A DNA stretch of 64,000 nt from Eubacteriales bacterium (GTDB taxonomy: Bacteria > Bacillota > Clostridia > Lachnospirales > Lachnospiraceae). Shown in pieces: positions 12,010-36,261 of the stretch. A model generated the notes under the pieces. That model was not told the origin of the DNA. It saw nothing but the letters and a program-made list of their open reading frames with translations, and made no database searches. Each line of letters begins with the position of its first letter. The stretch's first letter is position 1. The position numbers and the translations under genes were made by a program. The DNA lies in contig JAUNGM010000011.1 in the NCBI GenBank assembly GCA_030524545.1, positions 1 to 64,000 on the forward strand, read 5' to 3'.

Positions 12010-12348
12010 CTAAAGTTCAGCCCGTATCATCTTCTGGATGTTTCTCACAGCAGCATGCAGCTTTGTGCGGCTTAAACGCGGCGCATCCAAAAACTGCTCC
12101 ATGGCTTCCAGTTCTTCTTTCACATCATTCAGAAATGCCCTCTGGTGGTCTTCCAGTTTCTCGATCCTGCCCTCGTAGTATTTTTCCTGTTCCTCAAAGT
12201 CCACCCTATCCTGTTTGATTTCAGATACATACTCCTCAATGAAACGCCTTGGTTCCGTTCCGGCATACTCTTCGACCATCTCCAGCACATCCCTAAGTCC
12301 AAATACCGTGGCTGTTTTTCCGTCTTTCATTTCCATCACATGAGCCAT
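12010..12348 (-). CDS. small helical phage protein
   Basis: A 112-residue acidic protein dominated by heptad-like helices (about 30-85), so probably a coiled coil. The C-terminus (SRTKLHAAVRNIQKMIR) is basic. GAGGTGGCAGC precedes the ATG, and it starts 10 bases after the polymerase stop. No family recognised; a structural or partner role in replication is possible. Confidence 0.55.
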   Translation of the reverse strand: MAHVMEMKDGKTATVFGLRDVLEMVEEYAGTEPRRFIEEYVSEIKQDRVDFEEQEKYYEGRIEKLEDHQRAFLNDVKEELEAMEQFLDAPRLSRTKLHAAVRNIQKMIRAEL

Positions 12349-12357
12349 GCTGCCACC

Positions 12358-15276
12358 TCAATCCTTAAAATAGTAATCGCCTCGATACCCGGCCGCCGCC
12401 AGCGGTAAGTCCATACACCAGCGGGGATTTGCCGCCATGACTTTACAGATATCTTCTGGTGTGTACTTCCCGAGGGGTGCTTCAATAATGACTTCGTCAT
12501 GCACATGGCCCACGATCTCAAATCCAGCTTTCTCAAGCCGCCACATCGCTTCCGTCAGGATATCCCTGGCGATTGCCTGTGTTGCATTTTCCACAATTTT
12601 TCCAGAGTACGTCTCCTGCCTCTGCCACTTGTTATTTGCCCCTGTCCCACAGAAAGTCAGGCTCATCCGCCCGAACCGGTTCGGCTGGAGCTTCGGCTGA
12701 AGATATGCCAGTTTCCTGCCCGATGGCAGCTCCATCCACAGCGTACCGGAATAATACTGGAAACGGATTCTCTTGATACTGTGTTCTTCATGGGTTTTTA
12801 CGGTTTCCACCGCTGCTTTCTCCACATCCCACCAATACTGCACGATCTTCGGGTTTGCCTCCCGCCAGTTCTGGATCAGGTCTGGCAGCTCCGATTCTTT
12901 CAGTCCCATATCCAACGCACCCATGGAAATCAGTGCGCCCACGGAGCCGCCGTAACCACAGTTATGGACTAGCCTGCCCGATACGGTAAAACAGTGACGT
13001 CGTCCGGCATTTCGTATGTCATAAACTCTAACCTTGCCTCGATATACCGCCAGTTCTTTCGTCTTTCGAACACAGCTGTTTCTGCATCCCGAATAATCTC
13101 TTCCCGCGTCAATCCGGAAGACAGCTTTCGTATAACCACCGAACGTGCATAGGGCCAATATTCCGGATCGTAACGGGAAAGCACCGTACATCGTTTGTTG
13201 CGGTTGTTCTGCCTGTGTGTCACAAAATGGATATTGCCCGGAGCATAATTCCCATTGTTGTCTATCCTGTCTATCTCCATTTTTCTGTCTGGAAGCCCGA
13301 ATTTTTCGATTAGATAAATCCCCGCTTCTGTCACTCCCGGAAAATCGAATCGGATGCCTCTTTCCCCATAATTGTGATAGCCTGGATCGTTTGGGTTCTC
13401 GCACCGCTGTTTCGCAGCAGTCAGCCTTCTGTCCAGCCATAGCGGTATCTGCCTCGGCTGAGAACAGGACTGGCATCCTTTGGACAGTCCTCTTGTAAGA
13501 TTTCCCAAGATTGTCCATTGGACAGTGCCGCATCCCGTACACTCTGTCAGGACATAACAACGGTTCCACTCTTTGTTCCACCGTTTCTCCGGACCAATTA
13601 TTTTCACCCAACCGTATTGCTGTCCCACCATATCCGGATTGTATGAGATGTGCTCCGCAGGCGGCGGCGATTCCAAAGTATACCGGCTCCGTTTCCCCCT
13701 CGATAAAGACGAGATGGTCTGGTGTTGCTGTAAGTCCTTCATATTCAATCACCTCACGCTCTCCCTTGTAGATCACTCCTCCATGCGTTACCCATTCCCG
13801 GCCATCCCAAACTTTCTGTTCAGGCATAACGTCCTCAATGGGAACCAGGCCCTGATTTGTCAGAACCAAACTTCCTTCTGCAATGCAGGCTAATTCCGCT
13901 ACTTTACCCTTCTGCCGGAGGTCACCATTCACGCCATGTTTTACTACCGGCACATGGAACATCTGGCTGGCAGACTCACAGTAGATATCTGCCCCCTTTT
14001 CAAATGCATCCAACCGCCACTGTTCGCCCGCTTCCCATGCAAGCACTCTGGCTTCAATCGCTGAGAAGTCCGCAACAATAAACTCACAGCCTTCTTTTGG
14101 AACCAGCATGGTGCGGATCAGCTGGGACAGCACATCCGGTGTATTGCCGTAGAGCATCTCCACCGCTTCAAAACATCCCATCTTCACAAGTTCCCTCGCT
14201 TCATCCAGTGTGGAAATGTGGTTCTGGGGAAGATTTTGCAATTGAATCCCCCTGCCTGAGAAGCGGCCCGTGCGGTTGGCACCGTAGAACTGAAACAATC
14301 CCTTTGCCCTGCCATCCTGATTGACGTACCGCTCCGCCGCCTGGTATTTCTTCACAGAACTTTTCGCCATCTGTAACCGGAGTTTCAGCATATCCAGCGC
14401 CTCCTGGTCACATCCGTTCTTATCCAGTTCTGTAATCATTGCAGCCACATTCTTCTTTCCAAGACTCTCCATCGGGATGCCTTTTTCCTCCAGCCACTGC
14501 TTTAGCTGGCTGACGCTGTTCGGGTTCTCAAGGCCGGTCAGTTCATAGGCTTTTTTTGTCATCTCATCCGACAGCATCAGGTCACAGGCAATCGCCTGCT
14601 GCACCAGTACCGTGTCGATCCTGACACCCCGGTCGTTGATGCGCTGGTCCATATGGTAGTAGTTCCATTCAGCCTCCGGCATCGGGAATGCCACCAGCCG
14701 TCTGCGGATATCCCGTTCAGTGCGGACATCCTGCAGGCAGTAATCCTTAAATTTCCGCCACCCTTCTGGATCATGTTCCGGGAGGTTTCGTGTGCGCCCG
14801 CCATTTGATTTTGTCGGCTTGCACGGGACAGAAAAATATTTGATTAAGTTCTCCCCAGCCCGGTCCTTCTGCTCCCCGGTCTTTAACGCCAATGCCGCAT
14901 TCCTCAGTGCAAGCGGGAGAGAAAGGGATGCCGCGTGTATCATGGAACACTGCCAGCTGTCCGGGGAGAGCACCCGCCCCAGATAATGTCCGATGCAGGT
15001 ACGCTCAAACTGTGCGTTCCATGCCGCTTTGATAATGCCGGGATCGTCAATGGCATCCCATATCTCCTGCGGCACATTTTCCCCGCAGGCCATATCCACA
15101 ATCCGCACCTCTTCCTCATCAAAGGCGTATGCCAGCAGCAGGATTTCAAAATCTTCTGCTTCCACATACCGGTACACGCCACACTTGGAAAGATCTGCGC
15201 TGCTGTAGGTCTCCAAATCAATGGAAAGCACCTGCGGACTGTCTGGCGGCCTGCTGTCTGTATAAATCTCATTCAT
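12358..15276 (-). CDS. phage family A DNA polymerase with intein in motif B
   Basis: Replicates phage DNA. The N-terminal 3'-5' exonuclease domain shows SIDLETYSS (DxE) near residue 20 and YCLQDVRTE near 180. The polymerase domain shows motif A FIVADFSAIEARVLAWE near 405, the start of motif B (GDLRQKGKVAELA), and motif C GHVHDEVIIEA near 925. Motif B is interrupted after AELA by a 309-residue intein and resumes with CGYGGSVGAL. Without the intein the mature protein is about 663 residues, normal for phage enzymes of this kind. The start at 15276 follows GGGGTG; two upstream starts are possible. An HNH gene in another frame lies inside the intein. Confidence 0.93.
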   Translation of the reverse strand: MNEIYTDSRPPDSPQVLSIDLETYSSADLSKCGVYRYVEAEDFEILLLAYAFDEEEVRIVDMACGENVPQEIWDAIDDPGIIKAAWNAQFERTCIGHYLGRVLSPDSWQCSMIHAASLSLPLALRNAALALKTGEQKDRAGENLIKYFSVPCKPTKSNGGRTRNLPEHDPEGWRKFKDYCLQDVRTERDIRRRLVAFPMPEAEWNYYHMDQRINDRGVRIDTVLVQQAIACDLMLSDEMTKKAYELTGLENPNSVSQLKQWLEEKGIPMESLGKKNVAAMITELDKNGCDQEALDMLKLRLQMAKSSVKKYQAAERYVNQDGRAKGLFQFYGANRTGRFSGRGIQLQNLPQNHISTLDEARELVKMGCFEAVEMLYGNTPDVLSQLIRTMLVPKEGCEFIVADFSAIEARVLAWEAGEQWRLDAFEKGADIYCESASQMFHVPVVKHGVNGDLRQKGKVAELACIAEGSLVLTNQGLVPIEDVMPEQKVWDGREWVTHGGVIYKGEREVIEYEGLTATPDHLVFIEGETEPVYFGIAAACGAHLIQSGYGGTAIRLGENNWSGETVEQRVEPLLCPDRVYGMRHCPMDNLGKSYKRTVQRMPVLFSAEADTAMAGQKADCCETAVREPKRSRLSQLWGKRHPIRFSGSDRSGDLSNRKIRASRQKNGDRQDRQQWELCSGQYPFCDTQAEQPQQTMYGAFPLRSGILALCTFGGYTKAVFRIDAGRDYSGCRNSCVRKTKELAVYRGKVRVYDIRNAGRRHCFTVSGRLVHNCGYGGSVGALISMGALDMGLKESELPDLIQNWREANPKIVQYWWDVEKAAVETVKTHEEHSIKRIRFQYYSGTLWMELPSGRKLAYLQPKLQPNRFGRMSLTFCGTGANNKWQRQETYSGKIVENATQAIARDILTEAMWRLEKAGFEIVGHVHDEVIIEAPLGKYTPEDICKVMAANPRWCMDLPLAAAGYRGDYYFKD
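12961..13887 (-). mobile_element. intein (309 residues) in DNA polymerase motif B
   Basis: The insert begins with Cys (CIAEGSLVLTNQG, block A) and has TPDH (block B TxxH) about 55 residues in. It ends with VYDIRNAGRRHCFTVSG (block F) and GRLVHN followed by Cys of the host protein (block G). All residues for standard splicing are present: Cys1, the block B His, terminal His-Asn, and Cys+1. The central in-frame part (about 60-280 of the intein) has no recognisable endonuclease domain and looks like unselected sequence. A separate endonuclease lies there in another frame. Confidence 0.92.
12969..13742 (-). CDS. HNH homing endonuclease encoded out of frame inside the intein
   Basis: A 257-residue protein read in the +1 frame relative to the intein on the same strand. 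It starts at ATG 13742 with GAGGTGATT in ribosome-site position and stops at 12969, eight bases before the intein ends. Zinc-type cysteines (CTGC, CQSC) flank residues 68-93. The RCENPNDPGYHNYGERGI segment and the core EIDRIDNNGNYAPGNIHFVT, followed by RQNNRNKR, are typical of phage HNH homing nucleases. It should cut intein-free polymerase genes and so spread the intein. Its last 30 codons overlap the intein's essential C-terminal splicing blocks, so both proteins are encoded by the same bases there. Confidence 0.88.
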   Translation of the reverse strand: MKDLQQHQTISSLSRGKRSRYTLESPPPAEHISYNPDMVGQQYGWVKIIGPEKRWNKEWNRCYVLTECTGCGTVQWTILGNLTRGLSKGCQSCSQPRQIPLWLDRRLTAAKQRCENPNDPGYHNYGERGIRFDFPGVTEAGIYLIEKFGLPDRKMEIDRIDNNGNYAPGNIHFVTHRQNNRNKRCTVLSRYDPEYWPYARSVVIRKLSSGLTREEIIRDAETAVFERRKNWRYIEARLEFMTYEMPDDVTVLPYRAG

Positions 15277-15358
15277 GTTCATCACCCCATGTAATGGGAA
15301 CTCCGGGAGAAGGCATCCGCCTCCTTCCCGGCTCCCATTATTTTGCTGCTGTGTTACT

Positions 15359-23416: not shown

Positions 23417-25765
23417 CTAATGTGCGCTAATATTCTCCACAATCGACATGGCGTGAAGACGTTTTGCCGGACCTCTGACAGCAAGGACGGTTGTGAGCAA
23501 TACAACACAGATGATCAATCCCAGAGCTAAAAACGGAATGTTCCATGCAATTCCCCAAAAATTCGTAATCAAGCTGACAAAGACAACCCAATGCAAAGGT
23601 ATTCCTATTATACATCCGGCAATAATACCGCTGACCGCATACGTTGTTGCTTCTGCAACGATCATCTTCACCAGTTGCCAATCACTCATACCTATTGCCC
23701 TCATTGCTCCATACTGCTTCATTTTTGCCGCAACACCCATGTTTATGGTATTCATTATATGAAAAACTGTAATGGCAACAATGATCGACAAAAAACCATA
23801 TACCAAAACGGCAAAAGCACGATACAAGTTTCGTTGCTGCTGGACAGCGGATAAATTATTAGAAAATGTGACATCACCTGTAAACAGGGATTCCACTTCC
23901 TTGACATCTTGCTGCGAAGCACTATTCTGGAACTGGACGTCAATAATCGTATAGCCATTCTCACCAGTTAAGCCAGTAAAAGTTTCCTCTGAGCAAAAAA
24001 TAGTTTCTGTTCCCTCTAAACGCGCTAATGGACTATCCGATAAGATACCTGCCACCGTAACCTTGCGTTCTTCACCATTGATGGACAGAACAATACTGTC
24101 TCCCACATGGACATCCGAGGTTTCGCTATCTACAAATAACACTTGGTTCACTTTCTGCCGAACCGGATCAACCGAGCCTTCGATCAGGGAATCTTCGGCC
24201 CACTTGAATTGATTTTCTTCATACGATATCACGTTGCTGTTAGAGAGATTTCCTTGAATCATAGCAGGAACATCATACGCAAACATTCGACCAAACGCAC
24301 GCTTTACGGCATTATTTTGACTGACTGCTTCGGTCATACTGTTATCTATGGAGCAAGTGTTACTTTCGCTTACAATAGATAGCTCTGCTGTCCATTCCGG
24401 CGGTATAAACGCATTTTTCATAAAATCCACAAGAGTTGTGAATGATAAGAAAAGTGCAATACAGATTGCAAACGCACCAGTCATCAGAATATAATTCTTC
24501 TTACCTGCTTTTGCATGATGTACGCCCAAAGCCGTTTCAATCTTAAAGCGGTTTGTATTTGCCGCCTTATGAAAAGAATTTACTTGTTGTGCGTTCCCTG
24601 ACACAGCTTCCAGTGGAGATACTTTTGCTGCCTTTTTCGCCGGAGAACGGGCGGCAAGGAGTACAGTAAGAAGCCCTAATATAATACTTACCACAATACT
24701 AATCCAGCTAATTCCGAAAACAGGCATAGCTGAGAACCACTGCGGGCTGATAATTCTCATAGCTGCAGACAGAATCCAAACAACGATAATAGATAAACCA
24801 ATTCCAATGGGAATCGCCGTTTTACACCAATGAAGCCCCTCATGGCGCACAAACCGCATGATTTGCTTTTTAGTTGCACCCAAACACCGCATACTGCCAA
24901 AAAACTGTGTTCTCTGCATGACATTACTGTTCAAGGTACTTGATATCATCAGTATGCAGGTCAACATAACGATAATGGAGAGGAGCAGGGCCACTTGATA
25001 TATCTGGCTGACATTTGTCCCTGCCAACTGGCCCTCTACGCTTAACAGACTTTCATTCGCAGTAACTTGTTCATCGGACAGGCCATTCTTCACTTTTATA
25101 TCAGCGATTGCATTTGCCATATCAGAACGCCGGGAAAGCTGAATAACATAATCCCAATCCGTCATTGGACTGCCAGCCGAAAAAGCGAGAGCATCAAAAC
25201 CGTCTGGCGTCAAAACAGCGATAGATGTTTCACCGGTAACCAGCCGAGCGGCATCTTCGTTATCCAAAAAACCGACAACAGAAAAACTTGCAGAACTCCC
25301 ATCAGGACGCACTAAGTCGACCAATGCGCCCAATTCAAGCGAAGTAGCCTCTTTGATTGAAGAAGAAACAGCAATCTCATTTTCTGTGGTGGGGTAGCTT
25401 CCCTCAGTAAGCGTATTCAAATATATATCTTCAAAAACAACTTCGTCTTGGCCGCTAATAGCAACAGGCTGTTCGTTAATCGAGTACCCCGCATCAGACT
25501 TGACCGTATTATGCCAGCCTGAAACCTCAACTTCAGGCCGTACTGAAATCAGCGTTGCCGTATCTGCATCAAGCGCGGAAAACTGATAATGCCAATTCCC
25601 GCTCGTTTGCATTTGTTTCTGGATTGCACCTTGCAAATACATATCAGCAAGGCCGAACATGACTGCCACCAAAAACACAGCGAGTATGATACAAATACGG
25701 GTCATTTTACTTTGCTTTTGATGAACTTTTGCGGATATAGGAACAAGATCAAGATAACGTCTCAT
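23417..25765 (-). CDS. ABC transporter permease, FtsX/MacB type
   Basis: A 782-residue membrane protein with two FtsX-type halves. The first transmembrane helix is at about 25-45 (RICIILAVFLVAVMFGLA), then a large outside domain. A three-helix bundle follows at about 265-380, then a second helix and outside domain (430-640) and a final bundle at about 660-770. These permeases move antimicrobial peptides or envelope substrates, or use ATP for sensing, rather than importing solutes. It overlaps the ATPase gene by 17 bases, with GGGAGG before its ATG. Confidence 0.88.
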   Translation of the reverse strand: MRRYLDLVPISAKVHQKQSKMTRICIILAVFLVAVMFGLADMYLQGAIQKQMQTSGNWHYQFSALDADTATLISVRPEVEVSGWHNTVKSDAGYSINEQPVAISGQDEVVFEDIYLNTLTEGSYPTTENEIAVSSSIKEATSLELGALVDLVRPDGSSASFSVVGFLDNEDAARLVTGETSIAVLTPDGFDALAFSAGSPMTDWDYVIQLSRRSDMANAIADIKVKNGLSDEQVTANESLLSVEGQLAGTNVSQIYQVALLLSIIVMLTCILMISSTLNSNVMQRTQFFGSMRCLGATKKQIMRFVRHEGLHWCKTAIPIGIGLSIIVVWILSAAMRIISPQWFSAMPVFGISWISIVVSIILGLLTVLLAARSPAKKAAKVSPLEAVSGNAQQVNSFHKAANTNRFKIETALGVHHAKAGKKNYILMTGAFAICIALFLSFTTLVDFMKNAFIPPEWTAELSIVSESNTCSIDNSMTEAVSQNNAVKRAFGRMFAYDVPAMIQGNLSNSNVISYEENQFKWAEDSLIEGSVDPVRQKVNQVLFVDSETSDVHVGDSIVLSINGEERKVTVAGILSDSPLARLEGTETIFCSEETFTGLTGENGYTIIDVQFQNSASQQDVKEVESLFTGDVTFSNNLSAVQQQRNLYRAFAVLVYGFLSIIVAITVFHIMNTINMGVAAKMKQYGAMRAIGMSDWQLVKMIVAEATTYAVSGIIAGCIIGIPLHWVVFVSLITNFWGIAWNIPFLALGLIICVVLLTTVLAVRGPAKRLHAMSIVENISAH

Positions 25766-26444
25766 TTGCTTTTCCTCCCAAATCCGTAAGAATACCGTCT
25801 GATACCCTGAACACGCGATCTACCGAAGCGGCCAGATTGTTATTGTGGGTAATCATCAAAATCGTCTGTTGGTAATGGCGGGAAGCCTGGATTAGCAGGT
25901 CCATAACATCCTGACTACTTTTACTGTCAAGATTTCCAGTTGGCTCATCTGCTAAGATCAATTTTGGTTTTGTTATCAATGCACGACCGATGGCAACACG
26001 CTGCTGTTGCCCACCAGATAATTGATTAGGCAAATGATGACGTCGGTCTACCAGTCCCAAAACTTCCAAAATTTCATCAATATCTGCGGGCTTAGGTTTC
26101 TTATAATCCAAGAGAAGCGGAAACATGATATTCTGCTCTACTGTCAACTCCGGTACTAACTGAAATGACTGGAATACAAAACCGATATTACGCCGCCGAA
26201 AAATTGTTCTTTTTTCCTCTTTCATAGAAAACAAATTCTGTCCATCCATATAAACATTACCGGAAGTTGGAGTATCTAATGCTCCAATACAATTGAGCAG
26301 CGTACTTTTACCAGATCCAGATTCACCAACAATCGCAGCAAATTCGCCTTTCTCCATTGAAAAGGATACATTTTTTAAGGCTTCCACTCTTGCTTCGCCT
26401 TTTCCATATGTTTTACATAAGTTCTGTACTTTTAAAATTTCCAT
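25749..26444 (-). CDS. ABC transporter ATP-binding protein, MacB/LolD-like
   Basis: A 231-residue ATPase with Walker [10 protein letters not shown], the Q-loop [13 protein letters not shown], signature LSGGQQQR, Walker [13 protein letters not shown] and switch His in MITHNNN. It pairs with the overlapping FtsX-type permease. Transcription probably starts at the response-regulator site upstream (26469-26512). The set resembles peptide-antibiotic resistance modules. Confidence 0.92.
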
Positions 26445-26468
26445 TATAACAGTACCTCCTTTTCCAAA

Positions 26469-26512
26469 AAGATAGCAAATTCATCTTACACTCCGGTGAA
26501 TTTAACCTTACA
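26469..26512 (-). promoter_or_regulatory. response-regulator-type promoter of the ABC transporter
   Basis: On the minus strand, direct repeats TGTAAGGTTAAATT (26512-26499) and TGTAAGATGAATTT (26490-26477) are spaced 22 bases, followed after 2 bases by TATCTT (-10, with TG just before it). The same spacing and the same TGTAAG core occur before the receiver gene. The repeat overlaps the end of the kinase gene. Confidence 0.7.
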
Positions 26513-27737
26513 GTTTCGTAAGCAAGGAAATTATAAAAGTGGTTCCTTCATTCAAGTTACTTTGAACAGAAATCGTTCCACCCTGGCCTTCGATGATTGA
26601 CTTCGCCAGTGGCAGGCCCAATCCAACACCTTGCGTGTCCAAAGAATTTTTGCTCCGATAGAATCGCTTAAAAATGTGATGTATATCTTCGGCTGAAATA
26701 CCATGTCCATTATCTGTAATCATAATCCGAGCCATATATGGAGAACGATCATAACTAATCCATATTTTCCCTCCTGCCGATGTATGGTCTAAAGCATTTT
26801 TTACAATGTTGCCAATTGCTTCACTTGTCCATTCCATATCGCAAATAATTGTATCTTCCATCGGCCCATTCATCAAAATCTCCTTCTTCTCATTTTTTGC
26901 CCGTATTGTCAATTCACTAACAGCTCGTAAAATCAATTCTGATATTTGATAGGATTCCTTTTCAAATATAATATTTCCAACATCTAACCGGGTAATCTTC
27001 AACATGGAGGAAATCAGTTGTTCCATGCGTTTTAAAGATACATTCATTTTTGTAGAAAACTCTTTTACTGTATCCGCATTATCCGGCTCACCTTCAATTA
27101 TTTCCTGGTACATAGCAAGAGCTGACAATGGCGTTTTTAATTGGTGTGATATGTCGGAAATAGTACCTTTTAGGAATTCTTTACTTTTACGTTCCGTTTC
27201 ATTTTTTGCCTGTAGCATAGTTGAAAGCTGGTCTATTGACGCAAATAATTGAAAAATCGTCCCTTCGTTGCTTTGAGGCATATGGCGGGAGTAATTTCCC
27301 TCTATAAAATCAGAGATTGTATTTTCAGCTTGCTGATACAAATGTTCCCGCTTCCAGAAAAAAAGGAATGTTCCTGCTATAAGCACAATAGCCAAAACTG
27401 CTCCCGCCATCAACATGGGAAATTCTACTGTACGTTGAAATTGCGAAACAAGAGGAAATAATACTGTTGCTGTCTGGTCTGTCCTTCCAATTTTAGAAAG
27501 GAAGTTAGCTCCATTCTCACTACTTTCTGTATTTGCAATTGCAGTTGCTATAACATCTTCGGAAATTCCCTGATCCATGAGAGAAGTAATGATTGCATTA
27601 TCATGTGATAAAATGAGTTTCTGTGCCGCATTCGTTTGTATCACAACAATGCCTGCCCCTAAAAGAAAAAGCAGCAGAACAAAACAAAACACAAAATACC
27701 AATACCGTCTTATCTGTCTGTCATTCCAAAAACTCAT
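26508..27737 (-). CDS. sensor histidine kinase
   Basis: A 409-residue membrane kinase. Transmembrane helices lie at about 12-34 and 125-145, with an outside loop of about 90 residues. The phospho-acceptor His is in SDISHQLKTPLSAL, and the catalytic domain has NIVKNALDHT (N box), ITDNGHGIS (G1), FKRFYRSK, and GVGLGLPLAKSI (G2). It starts at 27737 with AAGGAGG upstream and overlaps the regulator by ATGA. The genomic link to an FtsX-type ABC transporter suggests it senses a peptide or envelope stress. Confidence 0.92.
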   Translation of the reverse strand: MSFWNDRQIRRYWYFVFCFVLLLFLLGAGIVVIQTNAAQKLILSHDNAIITSLMDQGISEDVIATAIANTESSENGANFLSKIGRTDQTATVLFPLVSQFQRTVEFPMLMAGAVLAIVLIAGTFLFFWKREHLYQQAENTISDFIEGNYSRHMPQSNEGTIFQLFASIDQLSTMLQAKNETERKSKEFLKGTISDISHQLKTPLSALAMYQEIIEGEPDNADTVKEFSTKMNVSLKRMEQLISSMLKITRLDVGNIIFEKESYQISELILRAVSELTIRAKNEKKEILMNGPMEDTIICDMEWTSEAIGNIVKNALDHTSAGGKIWISYDRSPYMARIMITDNGHGISAEDIHHIFKRFYRSKNSLDTQGVGLGLPLAKSIIEGQGGTISVQSNLNEGTTFIISLLTKL

Positions 27738-28432
27738 ACCGCAACCTCCTTCCATTGATATCCAAAACCACGCACTGTTATCAAGTGTTCCGGGTGGGAT
27801 GGGTCCGCTTCCACCTTCTCCCGGAGCCTCCGCACGTATACAGAAAGGGTGTTGTTATCTACATAGTCCCCGGTGCTATCCCACAACTCACTTAAGATCA
27901 TATCCCGTGTCACAATCCGATTCGCATTCCTTACCAGCAGGCAGAGCAGCCGATATTCTGCACCAGTCAGATCCAATACCTTTCCCGCCAGCATCACCCG
28001 ACTTCCGAAAAGATCAATGGTAATGTCTCCACATTCAATCGTTGTGGGATTAGCTGCATTCGATATTCCCGCCCTGCGGAGCAATGCCCGGATGCGCGAA
28101 CATAACTCTCCCAATTTAAAAGGTTTTGTTATATAGTCATCGCCCCCGCAGTCAAGCCCACGGATCACACTGACTTCCTCATCAGATGCCGTCAGATAAA
28201 TGATCGGTATCTGATGATTCTGCTTTCTTACCTTTTCGCATACTTCAAATCCTGTTCCATCCGGTAAAGTGACATCTAAAAGTAGCAAATCATATTTTCC
28301 GATATCCTGCAACGCTGTAAATGCTTCACGGACAGTACGAACCGTTTCCACTTCAAATCCATTTTTCTTTAAGGAATATTGAAGCCCATCTATTAAACTC
28401 ACATCATCTTCTAACAATAAAATTCTATTCAT
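27734..28432 (-). CDS. OmpR-family response regulator
   Basis: A 232-residue regulator: receiver with LLLEDDVSLIDG, LLLLDVTLPDGTG (phospho-acceptor Asp), YLTASDEE and ITKPFKLGEL, then a winged-helix output domain (GAEYRLLCLLVRNANRIVTR, YVRRLREKVE, VRGFGYQWK). It is the likely partner of the kinase, encoded with ATGA overlap. The 22-base-spaced TGTAAG repeats at two nearby promoters are its best candidate sites. Confidence 0.93.
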   Translation of the reverse strand: MNRILLLEDDVSLIDGLQYSLKKNGFEVETVRTVREAFTALQDIGKYDLLLLDVTLPDGTGFEVCEKVRKQNHQIPIIYLTASDEEVSVIRGLDCGGDDYITKPFKLGELCSRIRALLRRAGISNAANPTTIECGDITIDLFGSRVMLAGKVLDLTGAEYRLLCLLVRNANRIVTRDMILSELWDSTGDYVDNNTLSVYVRRLREKVEADPSHPEHLITVRGFGYQWKEVAV

Positions 28433-28611
28433 GTTGTAGCTCCTTTCCTGCCTGCCCGCCCATCATCTGGCCTGCTTGCATCTTTTGGTATCAGCCAGAC
28501 ACCAGACAGTTTTATTGCCCCAGGAATACGGCTTGCTTTACAGTGATACTGTACCATTCGCTCTGTCAATTCCCACTTCCTGGCTGCTTCTTTTGTCGTC
28601 ATAAAATCCAT
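28429..28611 (-). CDS. small HTH (excisionase/MerR-like) DNA-binding protein
   Basis: A 60-residue HTH_17-type domain (TTKEAARKWELTERMVQYHC, then IPGAIKLSGVWLIPKDA). It heads the two-component operon with ATGA overlap to the regulator and GGGAGG before its ATG. Proteins of this size act as excision factors or local repressors; it may bind the palindrome in its own promoter. Confidence 0.75.
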   Translation of the reverse strand: MDFMTTKEAARKWELTERMVQYHCKASRIPGAIKLSGVWLIPKDASRPDDGRAGRKGATT

Positions 28612-28635
28612 CTTCGTTACCTCCCGGCAGATACC

Positions 28636-28664
28636 ATTATATTTCGTTAAAACGAAAGAAGCAA
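28636..28664 (-). promoter_or_regulatory. sigma-70-type promoter with palindromic operator
   Basis: TTGCTT (28664-28659) and TATAAT (28641-28636) are separated by 17 bases, an almost ideal promoter for the operon starting at 28611. The spacer contains a perfect 16-base palindrome, TTTCGTT AA AACGAAA (28642-28657), so a repressor bound there would block RNA polymerase. Confidence 0.8.
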
Positions 28665-28703
28665 GTCAGATGGTCTTAAGTTTCCTTAAATGTTCTGATA
28701 ACT

Positions 28704-28747
28704 TTAAAAGCAGAGGCCAGTCGCTCATATGAAGCAACAGCCTCTGC
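28704..28747 (-). terminator. intrinsic terminator after the winged-helix genes
   Basis: On the minus strand GCAGAGGC pairs with GCCTCTGC and is followed by TTTTAAAG. It lies just past the stop of the winged-helix fragment at 28754. Confidence 0.7.
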
Positions 28748-28753
28748 CTTTAT

Positions 28754-28942
28754 CTATCCCACAAACTTATAGCCTCTCCCAATAACGGTCTGGATCATAT
28801 CCGGGTTCTGCAGTTTCCCTCTAATCTGGCAAATCACGTTATAGACCACATGCTCGCAGCCAGTCACACTCTCCTTCCAAACGGCATCGTAAATCTGTTC
28901 AGGAGAAAGCACCCAACCGGGATACTTTTTCTCATCCCACAA
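28754..28942 (-). pseudogene. winged-helix domain fragment (partial duplicate)
   Basis: About 62 codons matching the C-terminal part of the upstream winged-helix protein: YPGWVLSPEQIYDAVWKES, VVYNVICQIRGKL, IQTVIGRGYKFVG. It has no ATG or ribosome site and begins right at the stop codon of that gene. It looks like the leftover of a tandem duplication. Confidence 0.7.
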
Positions 28943-29330
28943 ACTTATACCCGCTCCCCACTACAGTCTCTATATACCCATCTCCGATCTTCCGCCTGAT
29001 CTGGCTTATTACATTCGTCACCGCCGCCCCGCAATGCTCCGAGTCCGCTTTCCAAACCGCTTCGTAAATCATGGATTGTGAGAGAACCCAGGATGGATAC
29101 TGTGCTAAGTAAAGCAGCGTAAAAAACTCATGGTGGGTGAGTGGAACGGGAATGCCGTTTTGGTAGACGGTCTGTTCGTTGATACGGATCTCCAGACCAG
29201 GGAATTTTAATGCCTGGGGAGAGGATGTTAAATGCGTAACCTGGCACTGCGTCCTTGAGGATAAGAAGTCCACGACCTCTTGCAGAATTCCATCCTCCTC
29301 CCTGGACTCAATGACCAGGATATTTATCAT
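28932..29330 (-). CDS. winged-helix protein lacking a receiver domain
   Basis: A 132-residue protein. Residues 1-35 keep the start of a receiver-like strand (INILVIES) but no phospho-acceptor. From about 55 an OmpR-type winged helix follows (LTHHEFFTLLYLAQYPSWVL, IYEAVWKADSE, VTNVISQIRRKIGDGYIETV). GGAGGTAAAAGCCT precedes the ATG. A paralogue of about the same length lies at 36306. It may regulate genes without phosphorylation. Confidence 0.8.
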   Translation of the reverse strand: MINILVIESREEDGILQEVVDFLSSRTQCQVTHLTSSPQALKFPGLEIRINEQTVYQNGIPVPLTHHEFFTLLYLAQYPSWVLSQSMIYEAVWKADSEHCGAAVTNVISQIRRKIGDGYIETVVGSGYKFVG

Positions 29331-29336
29331 AGGCTT

Positions 29337-29699
29337 TTACCTCCACTTTGCTTCTTTCAGTTTCGTATAGCTTTCATCGCTAATGATATGTTCAATTTTA
29401 CAGGCATCCTCTTCGGCCTGCGCCGGATCAACGCCAAACTCTATCAGACTGGAAGTAAAGAACTGATGCTTCTCATAGATTTTCTCCGCTACTTCTTTAC
29501 CGGCATCAGTCAGATGAAGATAGCCATCTTGGTCCATTGTCAAGAAGCTACCTTCTCGCAAAACTTTCACCGCATGGCTAATACTCGGTTTGGAGAACCC
29601 CATGTGCCGAGCAAGATCAACAGAGCGTACCATACCCTTAGTCTTTTGGATCATGAGGATTGCTTCTAAGTAGTCCTCGCCCGACTTATAAAGTTCCAT
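29337..29699 (-). CDS. DtxR/MntR-family metal-dependent repressor
   Basis: A 120-residue regulator with the family start YKSGEDYLEAILMI and a winged HTH (SVDLARHMGFSKPSISHAVK). The metal-binding helices include EKHQFFTSSLIEFGVDPAQA and EEDACKIEHIISDES, holding the E/H/C-type ligands, as in MntR-sized proteins without an SH3 domain. It is the fourth gene of an operon with two ABC transporters and a ZinT-like lipoprotein, which supports control by iron, manganese or zinc. Confidence 0.88.
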   Translation of the reverse strand: MELYKSGEDYLEAILMIQKTKGMVRSVDLARHMGFSKPSISHAVKVLREGSFLTMDQDGYLHLTDAGKEVAEKIYEKHQFFTSSLIEFGVDPAQAEEDACKIEHIISDESYTKLKEAKWR

Positions 29700-29708
29700 A
29701 GACACCTC

Positions 29709-31457
29709 CTATACGCTGAGTTTCCAGTTCGCCGATTCCGTCTGCAAATCAACCAATCTCCGATACAAACCGTTTTTCTTCATAAGTTCAGAATGAGTGC
29801 CACTCTCTGCAACAATTCCATTTGCAAGCACTATGATCTGATCTGCTGCCTCAATGGTTCTCATTCTATGAGCGATAACCAAAACTGTCTTACCTTGAAC
29901 AAGTTTAGAAATCGCGTTCTGAATTTCTGTTTCATTATCCACATCAAGGGAAGCGGTTGCCTCGTCCAGTAAAATAACAGGGGCATCTTTCAGCAGAGCG
30001 CGGGCAATCGAAAGACGCTGACACTCACCGCCAGAAAGAGTAGAACCATTTTCTCCAATGACAGTCTGATAGCCTTGCGGAAGCCGTTCAATAAATTCAT
30101 GGCACATAGCGGCTTTTGCCGCAGCTATCACATCTTCGTCAGTGGCATTTTTGCGCCCCACACGAATGTTCTCCATAATCGTGTTATTAAACAGCACCAC
30201 ATCCTGAAAAACGATGGAAAAGTCTTTCATCAGCATAGTAGAATCTAGCGGCGCAATATCCGTTCCGCCTAACAGGATTTTTCCGCTTTCCAGCGGATAG
30301 AACTTAGCAGCCAGTTTCGCAGCCGTACTTTTGCCGCCGCCAGATGGCCCGACTAATGCTGTGACTTGACCTTGCTTCGCTGTAAAAGAAACATCCTGTA
30401 AAACAGACTTGCCTTTCTCATAAGAAAACTTCACATGGTCGAATGTAATATCATAACCATTGGTGTGAATATTTTTCTCCCCAGCTTCTTCCGGGTATTC
30501 CTCGATTTCTTTCAGGCGGTTCACTTGTAACCCTACGCTGAACATTTCTGCCATATTAGACATAGCGCCGGAAAGCGGGTCATACAGTCTGGAAGCTGCA
30601 ATTAAATACAGAATATAAATAAATAGACTTGTCTGGCCTTTCATAACCAGCCCATTTCCAACAACAATCACCGTTGCCAGGCCAAGCCGAAGAAACATCT
30701 GCCCCGTTGTTAATAGGCTGGCAGTTGCCAATTCGGACGATACCTGCGCTTTTTCCGCAGCATCCATTTTGGCATCCAGCTTTTTCAGGTAATCTTCTTC
30801 CTGATTGCAGGCTTTAATGTCCTGTACCGTTTCCAGACATTCCTGTATTCCCTCTGCAAGTTCAAGTCTGGCTCCCATGTGTTTTTTTCCAAGTTTCTCT
30901 TGCCATTTGCGGGAAAGAATTACGATTGCAAAGGAAATCGGAGCAACCCATAAAAGCGCAAGCCCCATTTGCCAGTTAAAAATAAGCAAACCGACACATA
31001 CGATAACGGTTGAGATCACAGCACCCCAAAATTGAGGAACAGTATGGGAAAATGCGTGTTCAAAGCTGGCGCAATCACCCATGATTGTGCTGGTCAGATC
31101 AGAAAGGTCGCGCTGGTGGAAGAAAGAGAGTGGCAAAGTCCGCAGCTTCTCCGCAAGGCGGATACGCCGTCTGGCACTTTCCGCATAGGTTCCCATATAC
31201 GCTGCCGTATATTGGAGATAATGCAGGATAAATACCGCTGCCAAAATTACAATTCCAATCCCTGTATAAACGATAATGCTAAATTCCTGTGTTGCTGTTC
31301 CCAACAACGGCGCTAATAACTGGTTCAAAACAATTGCCAGCAGGATAACGGGGAGCATCAGACTGATATTTGCCAGAACAGAGTACACAATTCCCTTAAA
31401 CAAATCTCTTGCGCCCTGATCGCTGAGTGCATATTTCTTTTTCAGTGCTTCAATCAT
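29709..31457 (-). CDS. ABC transporter, fused permease-ATPase, second half of a heterodimer
   Basis: A 582-residue type IV exporter-fold half-transporter: six transmembrane helices in the first 330 residues, then an ATPase with Walker A GPSGGGKST, signature LSGGECQR and Walker B VILLDEATASLD. Start at 31457, one base after the stop of its partner. Pairs of this kind linked to AraC and DtxR regulators resemble the YbtP/YbtQ and IrtA/IrtB siderophore importers. Drug export is the alternative. Confidence 0.88.
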   Translation of the reverse strand: MIEALKKKYALSDQGARDLFKGIVYSVLANISLMLPVILLAIVLNQLLAPLLGTATQEFSIIVYTGIGIVILAAVFILHYLQYTAAYMGTYAESARRRIRLAEKLRTLPLSFFHQRDLSDLTSTIMGDCASFEHAFSHTVPQFWGAVISTVIVCVGLLIFNWQMGLALLWVAPISFAIVILSRKWQEKLGKKHMGARLELAEGIQECLETVQDIKACNQEEDYLKKLDAKMDAAEKAQVSSELATASLLTTGQMFLRLGLATVIVVGNGLVMKGQTSLFIYILYLIAASRLYDPLSGAMSNMAEMFSVGLQVNRLKEIEEYPEEAGEKNIHTNGYDITFDHVKFSYEKGKSVLQDVSFTAKQGQVTALVGPSGGGKSTAAKLAAKFYPLESGKILLGGTDIAPLDSTMLMKDFSIVFQDVVLFNNTIMENIRVGRKNATDEDVIAAAKAAMCHEFIERLPQGYQTVIGENGSTLSGGECQRLSIARALLKDAPVILLDEATASLDVDNETEIQNAISKLVQGKTVLVIAHRMRTIEAADQIIVLANGIVAESGTHSELMKKNGLYRRLVDLQTESANWKLSV

Positions 31458-31458
31458 G

Positions 31459-33258
31459 TTATACGTCCCCCTTTCCAACTTTCCAGGAAATCGAAGTCTG
31501 ATAGTCTTTCCACATGGTCGCATAAGTGCCATTCCCGGACAACAGTTCATCATGTGTGCCGCGTTCTATGATTTTCCCGTCCTTAAACACTAAAATCAAA
31601 TCGGCATCCTGTATGGTAGAAAGCCTGTGTGCGATCATCAGAACAGATTTTCCCTTTGTCAATTCTTCAAACGCAAGCTGAATTTGATGCTCGTTCTCTG
31701 CATCAGCAAATGCGGTTGCCTCGTCTAGAACAATGATAGGAGCGTCTTTCAAAATAGCCCTTGCCAGAGCAATACGTTGATTTTCACCGCCGGAAAGATA
31801 TGTACCGCCACTCCCAACAATGGTATCAAGGCCATTCGGAAGCCGGTCTATGATCTCCTTGCATTGCGCCATTTCCGCCGCTTTCAATACTTCTTCGCGG
31901 GTAGCCGATGGCCTGGCTGCCCGGATGTTCTCTAAAAGGGTGTCTTTGAAAAGACGTGTATTTTGAAACACGAAAGCAACTCGTTCCATCAGATCGCGCT
32001 TTGCAATGTTACGAACATCTACACCGCCAACAGAAACGCTGCCCTCTTGAACATCATAAAAACGGGGGATAAGACTTGCGGCTGTACTTTTGCCGCTACC
32101 GGACGCTCCAACCAAAGCGACTGTTTTTCCAGTCGATACTTCAAAGCTCACTTGCTCCAACGCCTTTTCTTTGGCTCCCGGATAAGTAAACGATACATTC
32201 TTAAATACAACGCTTGCATCTTTCGGCACTTGTGGGGAAACGGGTTCAGGAAGCGGCTGTTCCTGCAAAATGGCCTCCACACGGCTGACCGCGCTCTTAG
32301 CGGCCATGAGCTGTTCACTGGCAAACATGATACGGTTCATCATTGTGGCGCATACAGGTGTAAACAGACTGTAAAAAAGAAAATCAAGCGCCACATCTTT
32401 ATAGGCTGCCTGGCCGCTGACACCCGCTAAAATGAGCATGGCAACTGGAATCAGGAGAACGAAAGTTCCATTCAAAGTTACCGTGAATCCAGTCAGCGGA
32501 ACCCGGCACTTTAACGCATATCCAGAGGCAAATTTCTCATATTCTTCAATGGCGGCGTGAAAATTCTTGAAAGAATAAATCGTCTGCTGGAATACCTTTA
32601 CGATAGGAATACCGCGGATGTATTCAACAGCCTCTTTGTTCATTCTTTCCAGGGCCGTCATATACTTAGACATAAACTGGGCATTATCACCGCCCATCAT
32701 CTGCTTTAAGAAAAACACACTGATTGCCATTGGAATCAGGCAACAGATGCCAAGCCGCCAGTCAAATAGGAAAATCAATACTAAAACAGCTACCGGCATA
32801 ACTACAGCTCCGGTCAGATCGGGAAGCTGGTGGGCCAAAAAGCCCTCTGTAAGTCCCGCATTATCATCAATAATTTTCCGTAGCTGTCCACTGGCGTTTT
32901 GACTGAAATAGCCAAGCGGCAAGGTCAAAATATGATGAATGGCCTCTTTTCTCATGTTCGTAGCAGTACGAAACGCTGCAAGGTGGGAACAGTTCAGCGC
33001 AAAAAAATAGAGTAAAATGCTAAGTGCAGAAAACAACACCGCAAGCCATGCATACCATCCACAGGAAACCGCAAGCGTAATATCGCCCTGTCCAAGCGCG
33101 TGAATGAACTCCCGGATGACAAACCAAATGCAGACAAATGGTAACATAGATAAAATGGTACTGATTCCAGCTAGAATACATCCAACAATGGTCAACCAGT
33201 GCCGGTTTCCTGCATACGCAAACATTTTGGATAATTCGGCATTTTCCTTTTGATTCAT
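31459..33258 (-). CDS. ABC transporter, fused permease-ATPase, first half of a heterodimer
   Basis: A 599-residue half-transporter with six membrane helices and an ATPase: Walker A GASGSGKST, signature LSGGENQR and Walker B IIVLDEATAFAD. The Asp-Ala after DEATAF, where a partner usually has SLD, suggests unequal ATP sites. AGGAGG precedes the ATG at 33258; an upstream in-frame start lacks one. It is followed at once by the second half. Confidence 0.88.
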   Translation of the reverse strand: MNQKENAELSKMFAYAGNRHWLTIVGCILAGISTILSMLPFVCIWFVIREFIHALGQGDITLAVSCGWYAWLAVLFSALSILLYFFALNCSHLAAFRTATNMRKEAIHHILTLPLGYFSQNASGQLRKIIDDNAGLTEGFLAHQLPDLTGAVVMPVAVLVLIFLFDWRLGICCLIPMAISVFFLKQMMGGDNAQFMSKYMTALERMNKEAVEYIRGIPIVKVFQQTIYSFKNFHAAIEEYEKFASGYALKCRVPLTGFTVTLNGTFVLLIPVAMLILAGVSGQAAYKDVALDFLFYSLFTPVCATMMNRIMFASEQLMAAKSAVSRVEAILQEQPLPEPVSPQVPKDASVVFKNVSFTYPGAKEKALEQVSFEVSTGKTVALVGASGSGKSTAASLIPRFYDVQEGSVSVGGVDVRNIAKRDLMERVAFVFQNTRLFKDTLLENIRAARPSATREEVLKAAEMAQCKEIIDRLPNGLDTIVGSGGTYLSGGENQRIALARAILKDAPIIVLDEATAFADAENEHQIQLAFEELTKGKSVLMIAHRLSTIQDADLILVFKDGKIIERGTHDELLSGNGTYATMWKDYQTSISWKVGKGDV

Positions 33259-33333
33259 AGTCACAAATCCTCCTAAAAAAGAGTCGGTGGGTATCAGAGC
33301 CACTCCAATTCCCACCGACACAAATTTTATTGC

Positions 33334-34107
33334 TTATTCAGACAGATTTTCTGTGCAGAAAAGCTGAATGCAGTTTTCGATGTCCTCCTGTGTGTAGTCA
33401 ACAGAAATACCGGAAGCCAGCCAATAAGCATATGTGCCCGCATCATACTGTCCCAATGCGTCCAAATCACTGCCATAGCGGAATTCAATGTGCCATGTGG
33501 TATCCATCGTATCGGGTGCCATGCAGAAATATGTAAATTCGCCAGAATCAGCATCGTCACTTTCGTAAATGTAAAGGCCACGAATTTCTTCCATGCCAAC
33601 ATAGTGATAAGAATGGCTGAATAATTCATTTCCGTCTGCATCCACTCCGGAAATGGTTGTGCCATCAAAAGTGAATTGTTCCACATCCTGTAGGAAAGCA
33701 CAGCAGTATGCCATGCTGCCGTCCTGATAAGCCGCTACCGCATCCTCCCCGGTCAGGGTTCCAGTCACCATAGAAGCCATCATGTCAACGGCGCTTTCAG
33801 CATTCTCCTTCCCAACCAGTTCTACACTGTCATCCAGCCATAACTGTTTGTATTCATCCGCCAGAACAACTGGCCAAAGCTCCTGATAGGTTCCTTCCAG
33901 ATCAAGCAAGAGCTGTTCTGCAGCCGCTTGATTCTCGTCAACTTCACTTTCCTGTTCTGTATCTGCGCCAGTGGTTGACTCTTCCGTAACGGCGTTTGCA
34001 GGTGGCTGCGTTTCGGATGTACCGTTACTTGTGTTTCCACAGCCAGCCAGCAAAGAAAGAACCAGGGCAAAAACAAGAAACAGGCTTGCTAATTTTTTCT
34101 GTTTCAT
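33334..34107 (-). CDS. lipoprotein with ZinT-like metal-binding domain
   Basis: A 257-residue lipoprotein: signal peptide with lipobox LLAGC at about residue 18-22, a Ser/Thr/Glu linker, then a domain of about 190 residues resembling ZinT/AdcA C-terminal regions (LEGTYQELWPVV, FDGTTISGVDADGNE, YHYVG, FTYFCMAPD, TTWHIEFRYGSDLDAL). The usual run of His ligands is largely replaced, so metal binding is uncertain. First gene of the ABC/DtxR operon; it may hand metal or a chelate to the transporter. Confidence 0.7.
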   Translation of the reverse strand: MKQKKLASLFLVFALVLSLLAGCGNTSNGTSETQPPANAVTEESTTGADTEQESEVDENQAAAEQLLLDLEGTYQELWPVVLADEYKQLWLDDSVELVGKENAESAVDMMASMVTGTLTGEDAVAAYQDGSMAYCCAFLQDVEQFTFDGTTISGVDADGNELFSHSYHYVGMEEIRGLYIYESDDADSGEFTYFCMAPDTMDTTWHIEFRYGSDLDALGQYDAGTYAYWLASGISVDYTQEDIENCIQLFCTENLSE

Positions 34108-34126
34108 TATGGTTTCCTCCTAAACA

Positions 34127-34171
34127 AAATATGTGCATCGGTTAGATTGAGCTAACCAATGCACATATTTT
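34127..34171. promoter_or_regulatory. long palindrome before the lipoprotein operon
   Basis: A nearly perfect inverted repeat of about 20-base arms (AAAATATGTGCAT, one mismatch, GGTTAG, and its complement) around a short loop. It lies between the AraC gene stop and the AGGAGG of the lipoprotein gene. It can end AraC transcription and may also fold in the leader or bind a regulator such as the AraC or DtxR protein. Confidence 0.7.
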
Positions 34172-34221
34172 ATCCGACATTTATTCGAATTACAATGACT
34201 GAACAGACTAAGTCTATCCAT

Positions 34222-35244
34222 TTAGACACTCTTTTTATATATGGTGGGTGGCATTCCGTACTCAGCATGAAAGGCCGATGTAAACTTGTTCGGATTTGTA
34301 TATCCAATCTTTGCAGCAATTTCCGCTATGGACAACTGCCCCTCCCGCAATAACTGTTCTGCGATCTGCAAACGGTATGTACGAAGATAGGCATACACGG
34401 AAGTTCCATAAACGCCTCTAAAACATTTTTTCAATGTAGTTGTTGAAATACCAAATCTTTCAGAGAGCTGTTCAATCGTATAGTGCTTTGTCAAATCTTT
34501 TGTAATAAAGGCGGCTACTTCTTTTATAAGTTTGACTTGCTTTTGGTTATAGTAATCCGTCTGTGTTACTTCTTTTACTTCATCAAGATCACTTAAAAAT
34601 AGTAACAGCTCCAACATTTTGATTTTCATATATCCTGGTTTTCGCTGTTCCCGTACATGGTATAATTCAGAAAAGATGTGTTCAATAGAGGGATTTGCCC
34701 GCATGATGCAAAGGCGGTTGTCCTCACAAATGTATTTTTGAATATAATTCAAATCAATGTTCAGCAGCTTCATAATCTGCCGCACTTCCGGCAACAGTTC
34801 ATCCAGGTCAATAATAATCGTAATTCCATGATAATGACTAAGCGGAAATGCTGAAAAGGATTTCTTTTTCATCATAGAACCAATGGATAAATCACCCGCA
34901 GCCATATAACAGCAGCCGTTTTCTCCAAAGTTGCACTCATACCGCCCAATACAACAGTGGTTAATTTCGATCATGTTTTTAGCAGTAGCTTGATTTTGAT
35001 TGCAATATGCCATGTGCATATCATTGTAGTACAGTTCAATTCCAGTAAACACCTGATAGGCAGTTATTCTTCCTGTTCCGGTCTCATTGGATAGTTTATA
35101 TACTTTACAATCAGGACACAGGTTGTTTTCATCTTCCACGGTTTCTCCGTATAGTTTTGTTCCCTCAAATTCTAAAGGCAAATGTGCCAGTGTTGTCAGA
35201 ATGTCAATGGTATCGGAAATCGCTTGCTTTTTCATGGCAGACAT
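34222..35244 (-). CDS. AraC-family transcriptional activator
   Basis: A 340-residue regulator with a long N-terminal sensing domain (Cys-rich, NNLCPDCKVYKL, CCIGRYECNFGENGCCY) and a C-terminal AraC domain with two HTH motifs (YTIEQLSERFGISTTTLKKC, then SIAEIAAKIGYTNPNKFTSA). AAAGGGGGATTGG precedes the start. In siderophore loci such as ybt an AraC protein senses the chelate and turns on the transporter; the same order here supports that reading. Confidence 0.9.
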   Translation of the reverse strand: MSAMKKQAISDTIDILTTLAHLPLEFEGTKLYGETVEDENNLCPDCKVYKLSNETGTGRITAYQVFTGIELYYNDMHMAYCNQNQATAKNMIEINHCCIGRYECNFGENGCCYMAAGDLSIGSMMKKKSFSAFPLSHYHGITIIIDLDELLPEVRQIMKLLNIDLNYIQKYICEDNRLCIMRANPSIEHIFSELYHVREQRKPGYMKIKMLELLLFLSDLDEVKEVTQTDYYNQKQVKLIKEVAAFITKDLTKHYTIEQLSERFGISTTTLKKCFRGVYGTSVYAYLRTYRLQIAEQLLREGQLSIAEIAAKIGYTNPNKFTSAFHAEYGMPPTIYKKSV

Positions 35245-35329
35245 ATCCAATCCCCCTTTCTTGTTTGTTGCATCTAACTCGTTTTTAGTATATTCGAGGA
35301 AAATTCAGAAGTCAAGAAACCTATAATGA

Positions 35330-35599
35330 CTAAATATCCGCATTTTCCCCTTCTGCTATCCGCTCCGCTTCCTCCAAAGGGAAGTCCGGTATCTTCTCCA
35401 GCAGATTCAGAATAATGGATTGTTTCATATCCTCATCCACATAGGTTCTCACGCTGCCATCTGGCTGCCTTTCTTTCACTGTAGCAAACTCTGTCATATA
35501 ATCATCGTAATATCTAAGAACTCGTTCCGTTGCCCACTTCTCCCCGGCAACAGCCGCTTTGATAATTTCATAAGTCAATGTATTCTGCTGATCGTCCAT
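35330..35599 (-). CDS. small HTH (HTH_16-type) protein, paralogue of the one at 20922
   Basis: An 89-residue helical protein with TYEIIKAAVAGEKWATERVL and RYYDDYMTEFATV, the same plan as the gene at 20922-21170. GGAGGTACGG precedes the ATG. No sigma factor gene is adjacent, so this copy is a stray piece of another integrative element or acts alone. Confidence 0.7.
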   Translation of the reverse strand: MDDQQNTLTYEIIKAAVAGEKWATERVLRYYDDYMTEFATVKERQPDGSVRTYVDEDMKQSIILNLLEKIPDFPLEEAERIAEGENADI

Positions 35600-35695
35600 A
35601 ATTCCGTACCTCCAAATTGATATACTGCTAACAGCATACCATATCTGTGTGGAAAAAGCACCCGCCAGTCACACTGACAGATGCCCTCATCCCAC

Positions 35696-36115: not shown

Positions 36116-36261
36116 GCTTCGCACCCTTTCCTGTAGAATAATTTACCACTACGGGTAGGATGTTACCATAGATTTCTTATTATTCGTTGTCATGAAAGAT
36201 AACTTTATGGGTCTATATTGATAAGTTTATCAGTCTTTTCGTTTCAAGCTTATTTAAAACA

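Follow-up and report, generated by a model that had tools for sequence, protein, structure and literature searches.

Arrangement of the locus

The window analysed here is a stretch of 64,000 nucleotides (positions 1 to 64,000 of contig JAUNGM010000011.1, assembly GCA_030524545.1, a Lachnospiraceae bacterium), and its family A DNA polymerase gene carries what is very probably a mobile intein whose splicing and homing functions are encoded by two overlapping genes. The polymerase open reading frame (ORF; 15285-12358, minus strand, as are all features of the locus; PF00476 4e-23, phrog_17 8e-130) has no internal stop and translates to 975 amino acids, about 666 without the 309-residue intein. The intein frame (12961..13887) is open from Cys1 at 13887 to Asn309 at 12961, 309 codons followed by a +1 Cys, with junctions kept in relatives and a predicted intein fold. 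It is inserted between RQKGKVAELA on the N side and CGYGGSVGAL on the C side, starts with CIAEGSLVLTNQG and ends with RLVHN. The HNH endonuclease ORF (12969..13742; 257 amino acids plus stop) is read in frame +1 with respect to the polymerase and intein (host+1), and a Shine-Dalgarno (SD) sequence, GAGGTGA (13749..13755), is placed six bases 5' of its ATG. Both frames and the ribosome site are as described in the first-pass annotation of this DNA. The evidence comprises the conservation of the arrangement, the dual constraint on the sequence, the start signals of the window family, the predicted intein fold and the pattern of mobility.

In the proposed mechanism, translation in the polymerase frame would give a precursor in which residues ~1-85 and 277-309 are predicted to fold as a splicing domain, and this domain would excise itself and join the polymerase halves. 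The intervening ~190 intein residues would be a by-product of the HNH frame, predicted to form a disordered loop. Ribosome entry at the internal SD and ATG within splicing block B, signals conserved in sequence and whose use we infer, would yield a separate HNH protein of 257 amino acids. This protein would cut or nick intein-free polymerase genes between KGKxAELA and CGYGG, and repair would copy the whole unit in. Selection would keep the nuclease as a protein and the intein as splicing blocks with no stops between them, and in-frame deletion of the nuclease would leave a mini-intein.

Conservation of the nested arrangement

The nested arrangement is conserved and is not a product of chance. 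Synonymous resampling of codons 31-230 of the window HNH, with its own codon usage (already depleted of stop-makers), predicted a mean of 11.8 intein-frame stops and gave no stop-free sequence in 500 trials, against none observed. Across the window family the prediction averages 10 stops per sequence (3.5-15.8). For 19 loci with the other relative frame, 0.5-5.1 stops were predicted each and none was observed; taken singly, several of these are not unusual in being stop-free (stop-free trials up to 57%).

A scan of viral contigs with the HNH protein identified 18 loci, and the polymerase/intein frame is open over the entire HNH in all 16 tested, the partial loci L016 and L017 being omitted. 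With the HNH alignment as query, scans yielded a further 60 genome loci and 61 new viral loci. An unfiltered tally, with no filter on the intein frame, comprises 131 loci with an HNH alignment of at least 150 codons, grouped by identity to any of 12 query proteins. At 55% identity or more, none of 92 loci (91 relatives and the window) has an intein-frame stop over the length of the HNH, against a mean of 18 stops in the other spare frame; these loci represent 72 distinct sequences, about 55 at 97%, and some are the same phage in two collections. Between 35 and 55% identity, 15 of 16 loci are open in the window's intein frame and one in the other frame. Below 35% (23 loci), 16 are open in the other frame, two in the window-type frame and five in neither. 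The last five (L020, L126, L136, L141 and L143) behave like genes that stand alone and provide a control. One of them, L020 (G000:C3:1197-1688), is a second HNH relative in the genome of the window, with 33% identity and stops in both other frames, and is apparently a free-standing gene.

No relative among the 91 keeps the HNH and breaks the intein frame inside it. In three relatives the departure lies elsewhere than in the HNH: the host frame is lost upstream of it in L028 and L082, and an in-frame C block was not found in L058. L028 is one homopolymer indel apart from L081, a record of the same region, and L082 is rearranged. A sequencing frameshift that separated an ordinary fused intein into two frames is very unlikely, since the arrangement is repeated across independent assemblies.

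A search with the intein profile confirmed at least 568 loci. Of the best 80, which were fetched, 79 have the N block, and the HNH-profile match is in host+1 in 79/79 and in frame in 0/79, with the reservation that the middle of the query is itself HNH-derived and favours such matches. An in-frame C block without stops is found in 76 of the 79; three of these are short (360-504 nucleotides) and their HNH match is mostly readthrough of the blocks. A search of viral contigs with the single intein-frame protein found no relative, whereas the HNH query and the alignments did, probably because the intein middle changes rapidly when read in that frame. The first-pass annotation had described a single locus and suggested looking for the same nesting elsewhere; it recurs in many loci, so that the claim stands and the arrangement is broader than stated, a class of inteins with two overlapping genes.

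Selection in both frames

For the analysis of variability, 99 extracted inteins were reduced to 78 of exactly 927 nucleotides (the window duplicate being dropped) and to 45 after removal of copies at 97% identity or more. This set is drawn from loci with an open host frame and has a median pairwise identity of 66%. In the intein-only N flank the mean site heterozygosity at intein codon positions 1/2/3 is 0.27/0.17/0.60, the pattern of a normal protein-coding sequence read in the intein frame. For HNH codons 31-230 the values at the same positions are 0.56/0.28/0.22; intein position 1 being HNH position 3, this is the pattern of a normal coding sequence read in the HNH frame. In the overlap of the HNH with block B the values are 0.26/0.13/0.35, and where it overlaps blocks F/G they are 0.27/0.18/0.20; the low heterozygosity at both overlaps indicates that both codes are held there.

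The intein frame leaves a second trace in the middle region. A T that would make an intein-frame stop before AA, AG or GA is found in 0 of 2103 opportunities, where 677 were expected, and T is used normally (664/1993) before codons starting AC, AT, GC, GT or GG. From the stop avoidance and the pattern of variability, the middle of the intein protein is nearly free to vary except that it admits no stops, and the splicing blocks are conserved. The selection on both frames first suggested from the absence of stops is borne out by the codon-position patterns, with the correction that the intein middle is nearly unconstrained beyond stop avoidance.

These data bear on the best surviving alternative, in which the intein splices and the HNH is a passenger in decay that has ceased to be made or to act, its conservation being a legacy of past activity. 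Mini-inteins and copies with a partly deleted HNH exist, and the nuclease activity, which we infer, goes with an unusual catalytic motif, all of which fits a passenger. The 45 divergent copies are however under purifying selection in the HNH frame (in the middle region, HNH position 3 stands at 0.56 against 0.28 and 0.22 at positions 1 and 2), the SD and ATG are preserved and the presence of the intein is patchy, so that a mere passenger is improbable.

Start signals of the nuclease

Codon 1 of the HNH is ATG in 42 of the 45 inteins (simulated mean 23.2, maximum 33), and an SD-like motif is present in 38 (simulated mean 18.2, maximum 29), the simulation being 2000 draws in which intein codons were resampled synonymously with the usage of each polymerase. 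The intein codons concerned are Tyr 49, written TAT in 43/45 (expected 23.5), and Glu 45, written GAG in 35/43 (expected 18.6). To judge by these codon choices, the HNH start and its SD are kept in the window family beyond the needs of the intein protein. The three members without ATG at this codon (L001, L025 and L095) have another SD and start in the HNH frame.

In the lineage with the HNH in the remaining frame (host+2) the start-signal evidence is weaker than in the window family. L127 and L128 have GGAGG and an ATG near nucleotide 78; L130, L138, L139, L145, L147 and L152 have an SD match of four or five bases close before an ATG at nucleotide 93; and the rest have only poor start candidates. 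No SD/start candidate was found for L135 in this lineage, nor for L146, which belongs to a different polymerase site (TYGGKL, see below).

The start signals can also be considered under a model in which the ribosome would shift frame twice, entering the HNH frame past block B and returning ahead of block F, to produce one ordinary fused intein-endonuclease. SD-like sequences within genes can promote frameshifting, and in many loci two or more codons preceding the ATG are open in the HNH frame. The unbroken intein frame already links all the splicing blocks and is protected against stops, however; the feature conserved is the pair of SD and ATG, replaced by another SD and start where that ATG is missing; and the relative frame varies between lineages. 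Such a double frameshift is highly improbable compared with the separate initiation proposed here.

Identity of the intein and the nuclease

The splicing blocks stand out in an alignment of 40 inteins, whose invariant residues include C1, T55, H58, D290, G295, T301, L306 and N309; H308 is kept in at least 90%. Block A (CIAEGSLVLTNQG; 13849..13887) has C1, V8, L9, T10 and G13 invariant, and block B (13702..13743) extends around the invariant T55 and H58. Block F (RVYDIRNAG..FTV; 12982..13029) includes the invariant D290, G295 and T301 and is slow at all three codon positions, and block G (RLVHN; 12961..12975) ends at N309 before the +1 residue, which is C or S at the junctions of relatives. The 3' part of the HNH ORF overlaps block F, and the sharing of bases with blocks F and G reported in the first-pass annotation is real; the overlap of the first ~30 HNH codons with block B had been missed. 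The HNH stops inside the intein in 25 of 45 inteins, in 21 after 257 codons as in the window and in four earlier, within block F, and runs into the extein in the other 20.

The AlphaFold2 model of the intein frame has block means of the predicted local distance difference test (pLDDT) of 92-97 for residues 1-80 and 92-95 for residues 281-309, and values below 50 for nearly all of residues 94-276. In a Foldseek search of this model against PDB, 49 of 50 rows are inteins or intein-like proteins (DnaX, DnaB, DnaE, gp41-1, RecA and others); the best E value is 8e-4, with two rows below 0.001, and the low template modelling score normalised to the intein query is due to the disordered middle. Sequence profiles gave less. 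Pfam and NCBIfam made no intein call for the intein-frame protein, Pfam Hint_2 matched one of 42 intein members (E 0.03), and a PDB sequence search with the intein profile was weak (best intein match E 0.48). The N part of the intein matched phrog_26005 (unknown function; 9e-11). With family calls weak or absent, the identity of the intein rests on its motifs, predicted structure and homologues: a nucleophile at residue 1, blocks A, B and F/G, a predicted Hint fold and seamless insertion.

The window HNH matched phrog_374 ('HNH endonuclease', 1e-23) and phrog_3377 (2e-18), and all 33 family members searched matched phrog_374, phrog_3377 and phrog_2081. Pfam HNH_3 matched 3 of 34 members, and a PDB sequence search with the HNH profile gave no match. 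The conserved elements are a zinc-finger-like CxxC...CxxC (C68, C71, C90, C93; 13464..13541), in which C90 is invariant and the other three are kept in at least 90% of 33 rows, and the nuclease core EIDRIDNNG...N..N (13197..13277), in which E156, D158, R159, I160 and N170 are invariant in the same rows. The predicted structure is confident over most of residues 21-250; residues 1-17 and 254-257, below 50, are the tails read through the splicing blocks. As had been claimed, the in-frame middle of the intein shows no nuclease: no significant match to one was found in Pfam, NCBIfam or PHROG, the best being a PHROG 'endonuclease' at E 0.3 located in the N block. There is no in-frame endonuclease domain between blocks B and F, the HNH of the window being in host+1.

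A group I intron with an HNH ORF, suggested by the 'type I self-splicing intron' in the GenBank record of Sodalis phage SO-1 and by the frequency of HNH genes in phage introns, is extremely unlikely beside the open frame, the conserved intein blocks and the predicted intein fold. The Rfam search gave no match in 12300-15300 up to E 1, and in seven related loci, SO-1 and APSE-1 (Hamiltonella phage) among them, no intron family reached the gathering threshold; with no ribozyme match at the window or the seven relatives, this candidate was rejected.

Mobility, empty sites and mini-inteins

Empty sites are frequent. Of 1732 phage records that matched a query of the joined exteins, 1303 cover at least 80% of it in one place; the 60 listed matches are all single pieces, hence empty sites, and in rows beyond these 60 the search may bridge a short insert. 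The polymerase comparison comprises 103 empty viral contigs and 90 intein-bearing loci from viral, genome and phage records, five of the 90 being mini-inteins. Close pairs of empty and occupied exteins are L056/L233 (96.9% identity), L148/L220 (94.4%), L095/L250 (92.2%) and L025/L211 (88.1%); for the window polymerase the nearest empty relative has 79.0% extein identity. Six empty/occupied pairs were aligned and show seamless insertion between the Ala and Cys codons. In a tree of 126 polymerases (70 empty, 52 with intein, 4 with mini-intein) at least 23 presence/absence changes are required, 11 of them forced by well-supported branches; the tree was sampled by presence/absence and this count is not a frequency. 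Among 59 other genomes of the genus of the window, four have an HNH match, of which one covers the full length, with 70% identity. The HNH probably spreads the intein.

Mini-inteins without HNH were identified at the same polymerase site in L150, L068, L070 and L074, the first two retaining the SD and ATG as relics. In L017/L080 (504 nucleotides) the HNH is partly deleted and the intein frame is intact. These loci form a useful series for the study of intein degeneration.

Distribution among sites and hosts

At the polymerase site of the window, host+2 HNH genes were identified in EBPR siphovirus 2, Vibrio phage 97.13 and several contigs. The nested arrangement is also found at neighbouring polymerase sites, in Sodalis SO-1 and Pseudomonas MR14. 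A second polymerase site, with TYGGKL before the junction and CEN after it, is occupied in host+1 in APSE-1 and Caulobacter RLK, and Shewanella SFCi1 is alike. Helicases are hosts in L112, L116, L117 and L119 (ResIII/DEAD) and, with a weak DnaB match, in L115. Additional sites of insertion were recorded beyond these.

The tree of HNH proteins (77 rows; a quick method, with several long branches) has three groups: host+1 of polymerases and helicases, most of host+2, and the TYGGKL-site members, which fall among free-standing HNH genes. Some rows depart from this: L125, which lacks an open host frame, is placed with host+1, and L131 and L132 are not within the supported group of host+2. The tree suggests three separate HNH captures. 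There is an about even chance that overprinting is a general, repeatedly evolved build of mobile intein, in which out-of-frame capture involved HNH genes of three or more lineages, two relative frames and the inteins of both polymerases and helicases; overlap with the splicing blocks of an essential gene would shelter the nuclease from decay, and its own ribosome site would set its dose apart from splicing.

Some individual loci are of separate interest. L118 (1300-5334) has an ORF of 1345 amino acids with matches to uracil-DNA glycosylase and DNA polymerase A, plus the nested intein/HNH. L002 and L003 are two intein-bearing polymerase regions on one viral contig of 214 kb. An intact copy is present in a strain available in culture, Allofustis seminis DSM 15817 (L066). 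In SO-1 (L142; 1094-4282 and 2578-3336) the frame is open, with intein-type ends and a nested host+2 HNH, and by these sequence features the insertion is likely a misannotated intein. In APSE-1 (L144; 677-3658 and 2931-3353) the stop-to-stop HNH frame starts well upstream, at about 2685, and the nested HNH may be annotated too short.

Comparison with known systems

The homing endonucleases of inteins are normally domains of the intein and, in canonical large inteins, lie in frame between blocks B and F. The intein of the window shares with these the splicing blocks, the insertion at a conserved motif and the homing logic, and differs in that the endonuclease is a separate overlapping gene, outside the intein polypeptide. 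Split inteins in which a stand-alone endonuclease gene occupies the break (fractured genes) also have splicing and homing as two proteins; there the host gene is broken into separate ORFs, whereas the window has one continuous host ORF and overlapping genes.

The closest records in GenBank are the HNH coding sequences nested in the polymerase coding sequences of Sodalis phage SO-1 (gp38/gp39) and Hamiltonella phage APSE-1 (APSE-1_45/APSE-1_46), at related or other sites. Neither record, in the rows shown, mentions an intein or coding in two frames; the SO-1 insertion, which has its HNH in the +2 frame, is explained there as a type I intron.

In the literature, passages of PMC11855218 (Genes 2025) describe the ShiLan domain, a 'hidden' out-of-frame HNH in insertions of mycobacteriophage DNA methylases. 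The likeness lies in the HNH out of frame in an insertion with the host frame open, the patchy distribution and the proposed homing. According to the same passages ShiLan lacks both splicing motifs and a detectable ribosome site and is believed to remain part of the protein, whereas the window family has intein blocks and a predicted intein fold, a conserved SD and ATG, and mini-intein forms. By sequence and model the window insertion shares with the ShiLan type the out-of-frame HNH and not the lack of a splicing domain. The precedent of out-of-frame HNH insertions without splicing motifs (PMC11855218) would allow only the HNH to be real here too, the in-frame reading being a non-splicing loop kept open so that the polymerase works; with Cys1, TxxH, D290, HN and the +1 Cys conserved, an intein-like predicted fold and mini-inteins that persist without HNH, this has next to no probability.

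Another out-of-frame HNH in a phage methylase is described in passages of PMC12613952, and the passages found by term in PMC5050341, PMC9957025 and PMC7765530 contain nothing of this kind. The conclusions of PMC11855218 cite a preprint for overlapping reading frames in actinobacteriophages, and this work, on non-canonical actinobacteriophage inteins, may overlap with the present finding. No published description of an out-of-frame endonuclease inside a splicing intein was found in a search that missed most subscription papers and bioRxiv.

A widespread class that encodes splicing and homing in distinct, overlapping genes alters both the detection and the annotation of inteins: a search in frame yields an intein whose middle makes no sense, and a search for HNH yields a nested ORF of spurious appearance. 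As splicing and homing are genetically separable here, the class is relevant to the unsettled matter of how inteins gain and lose nucleases. It also makes naturally dual-coded sequences available for studies of overlapping genes.

Genomic neighbourhood

The genes adjoining the polymerase encode an Enc34-type single-stranded DNA-binding protein, a DUF2800 protein, a DUF932 protein and an SNF2-type helicase, with a D5-type primase/helicase gene further along; we read this neighbourhood as a phage replication module. In Gardnerella phage AB1 the polymerase homologue is likewise preceded by DUF2815 and DUF2800 genes. Positions 23417-40094 of the window hold FtsX/MacB-type and ABC transporter genes, with the phage replication genes on one side and, on the other, a serine recombinase (47111-48532) and the gene of a minor tail protein (56526-59402). 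The window may hold more than one element.

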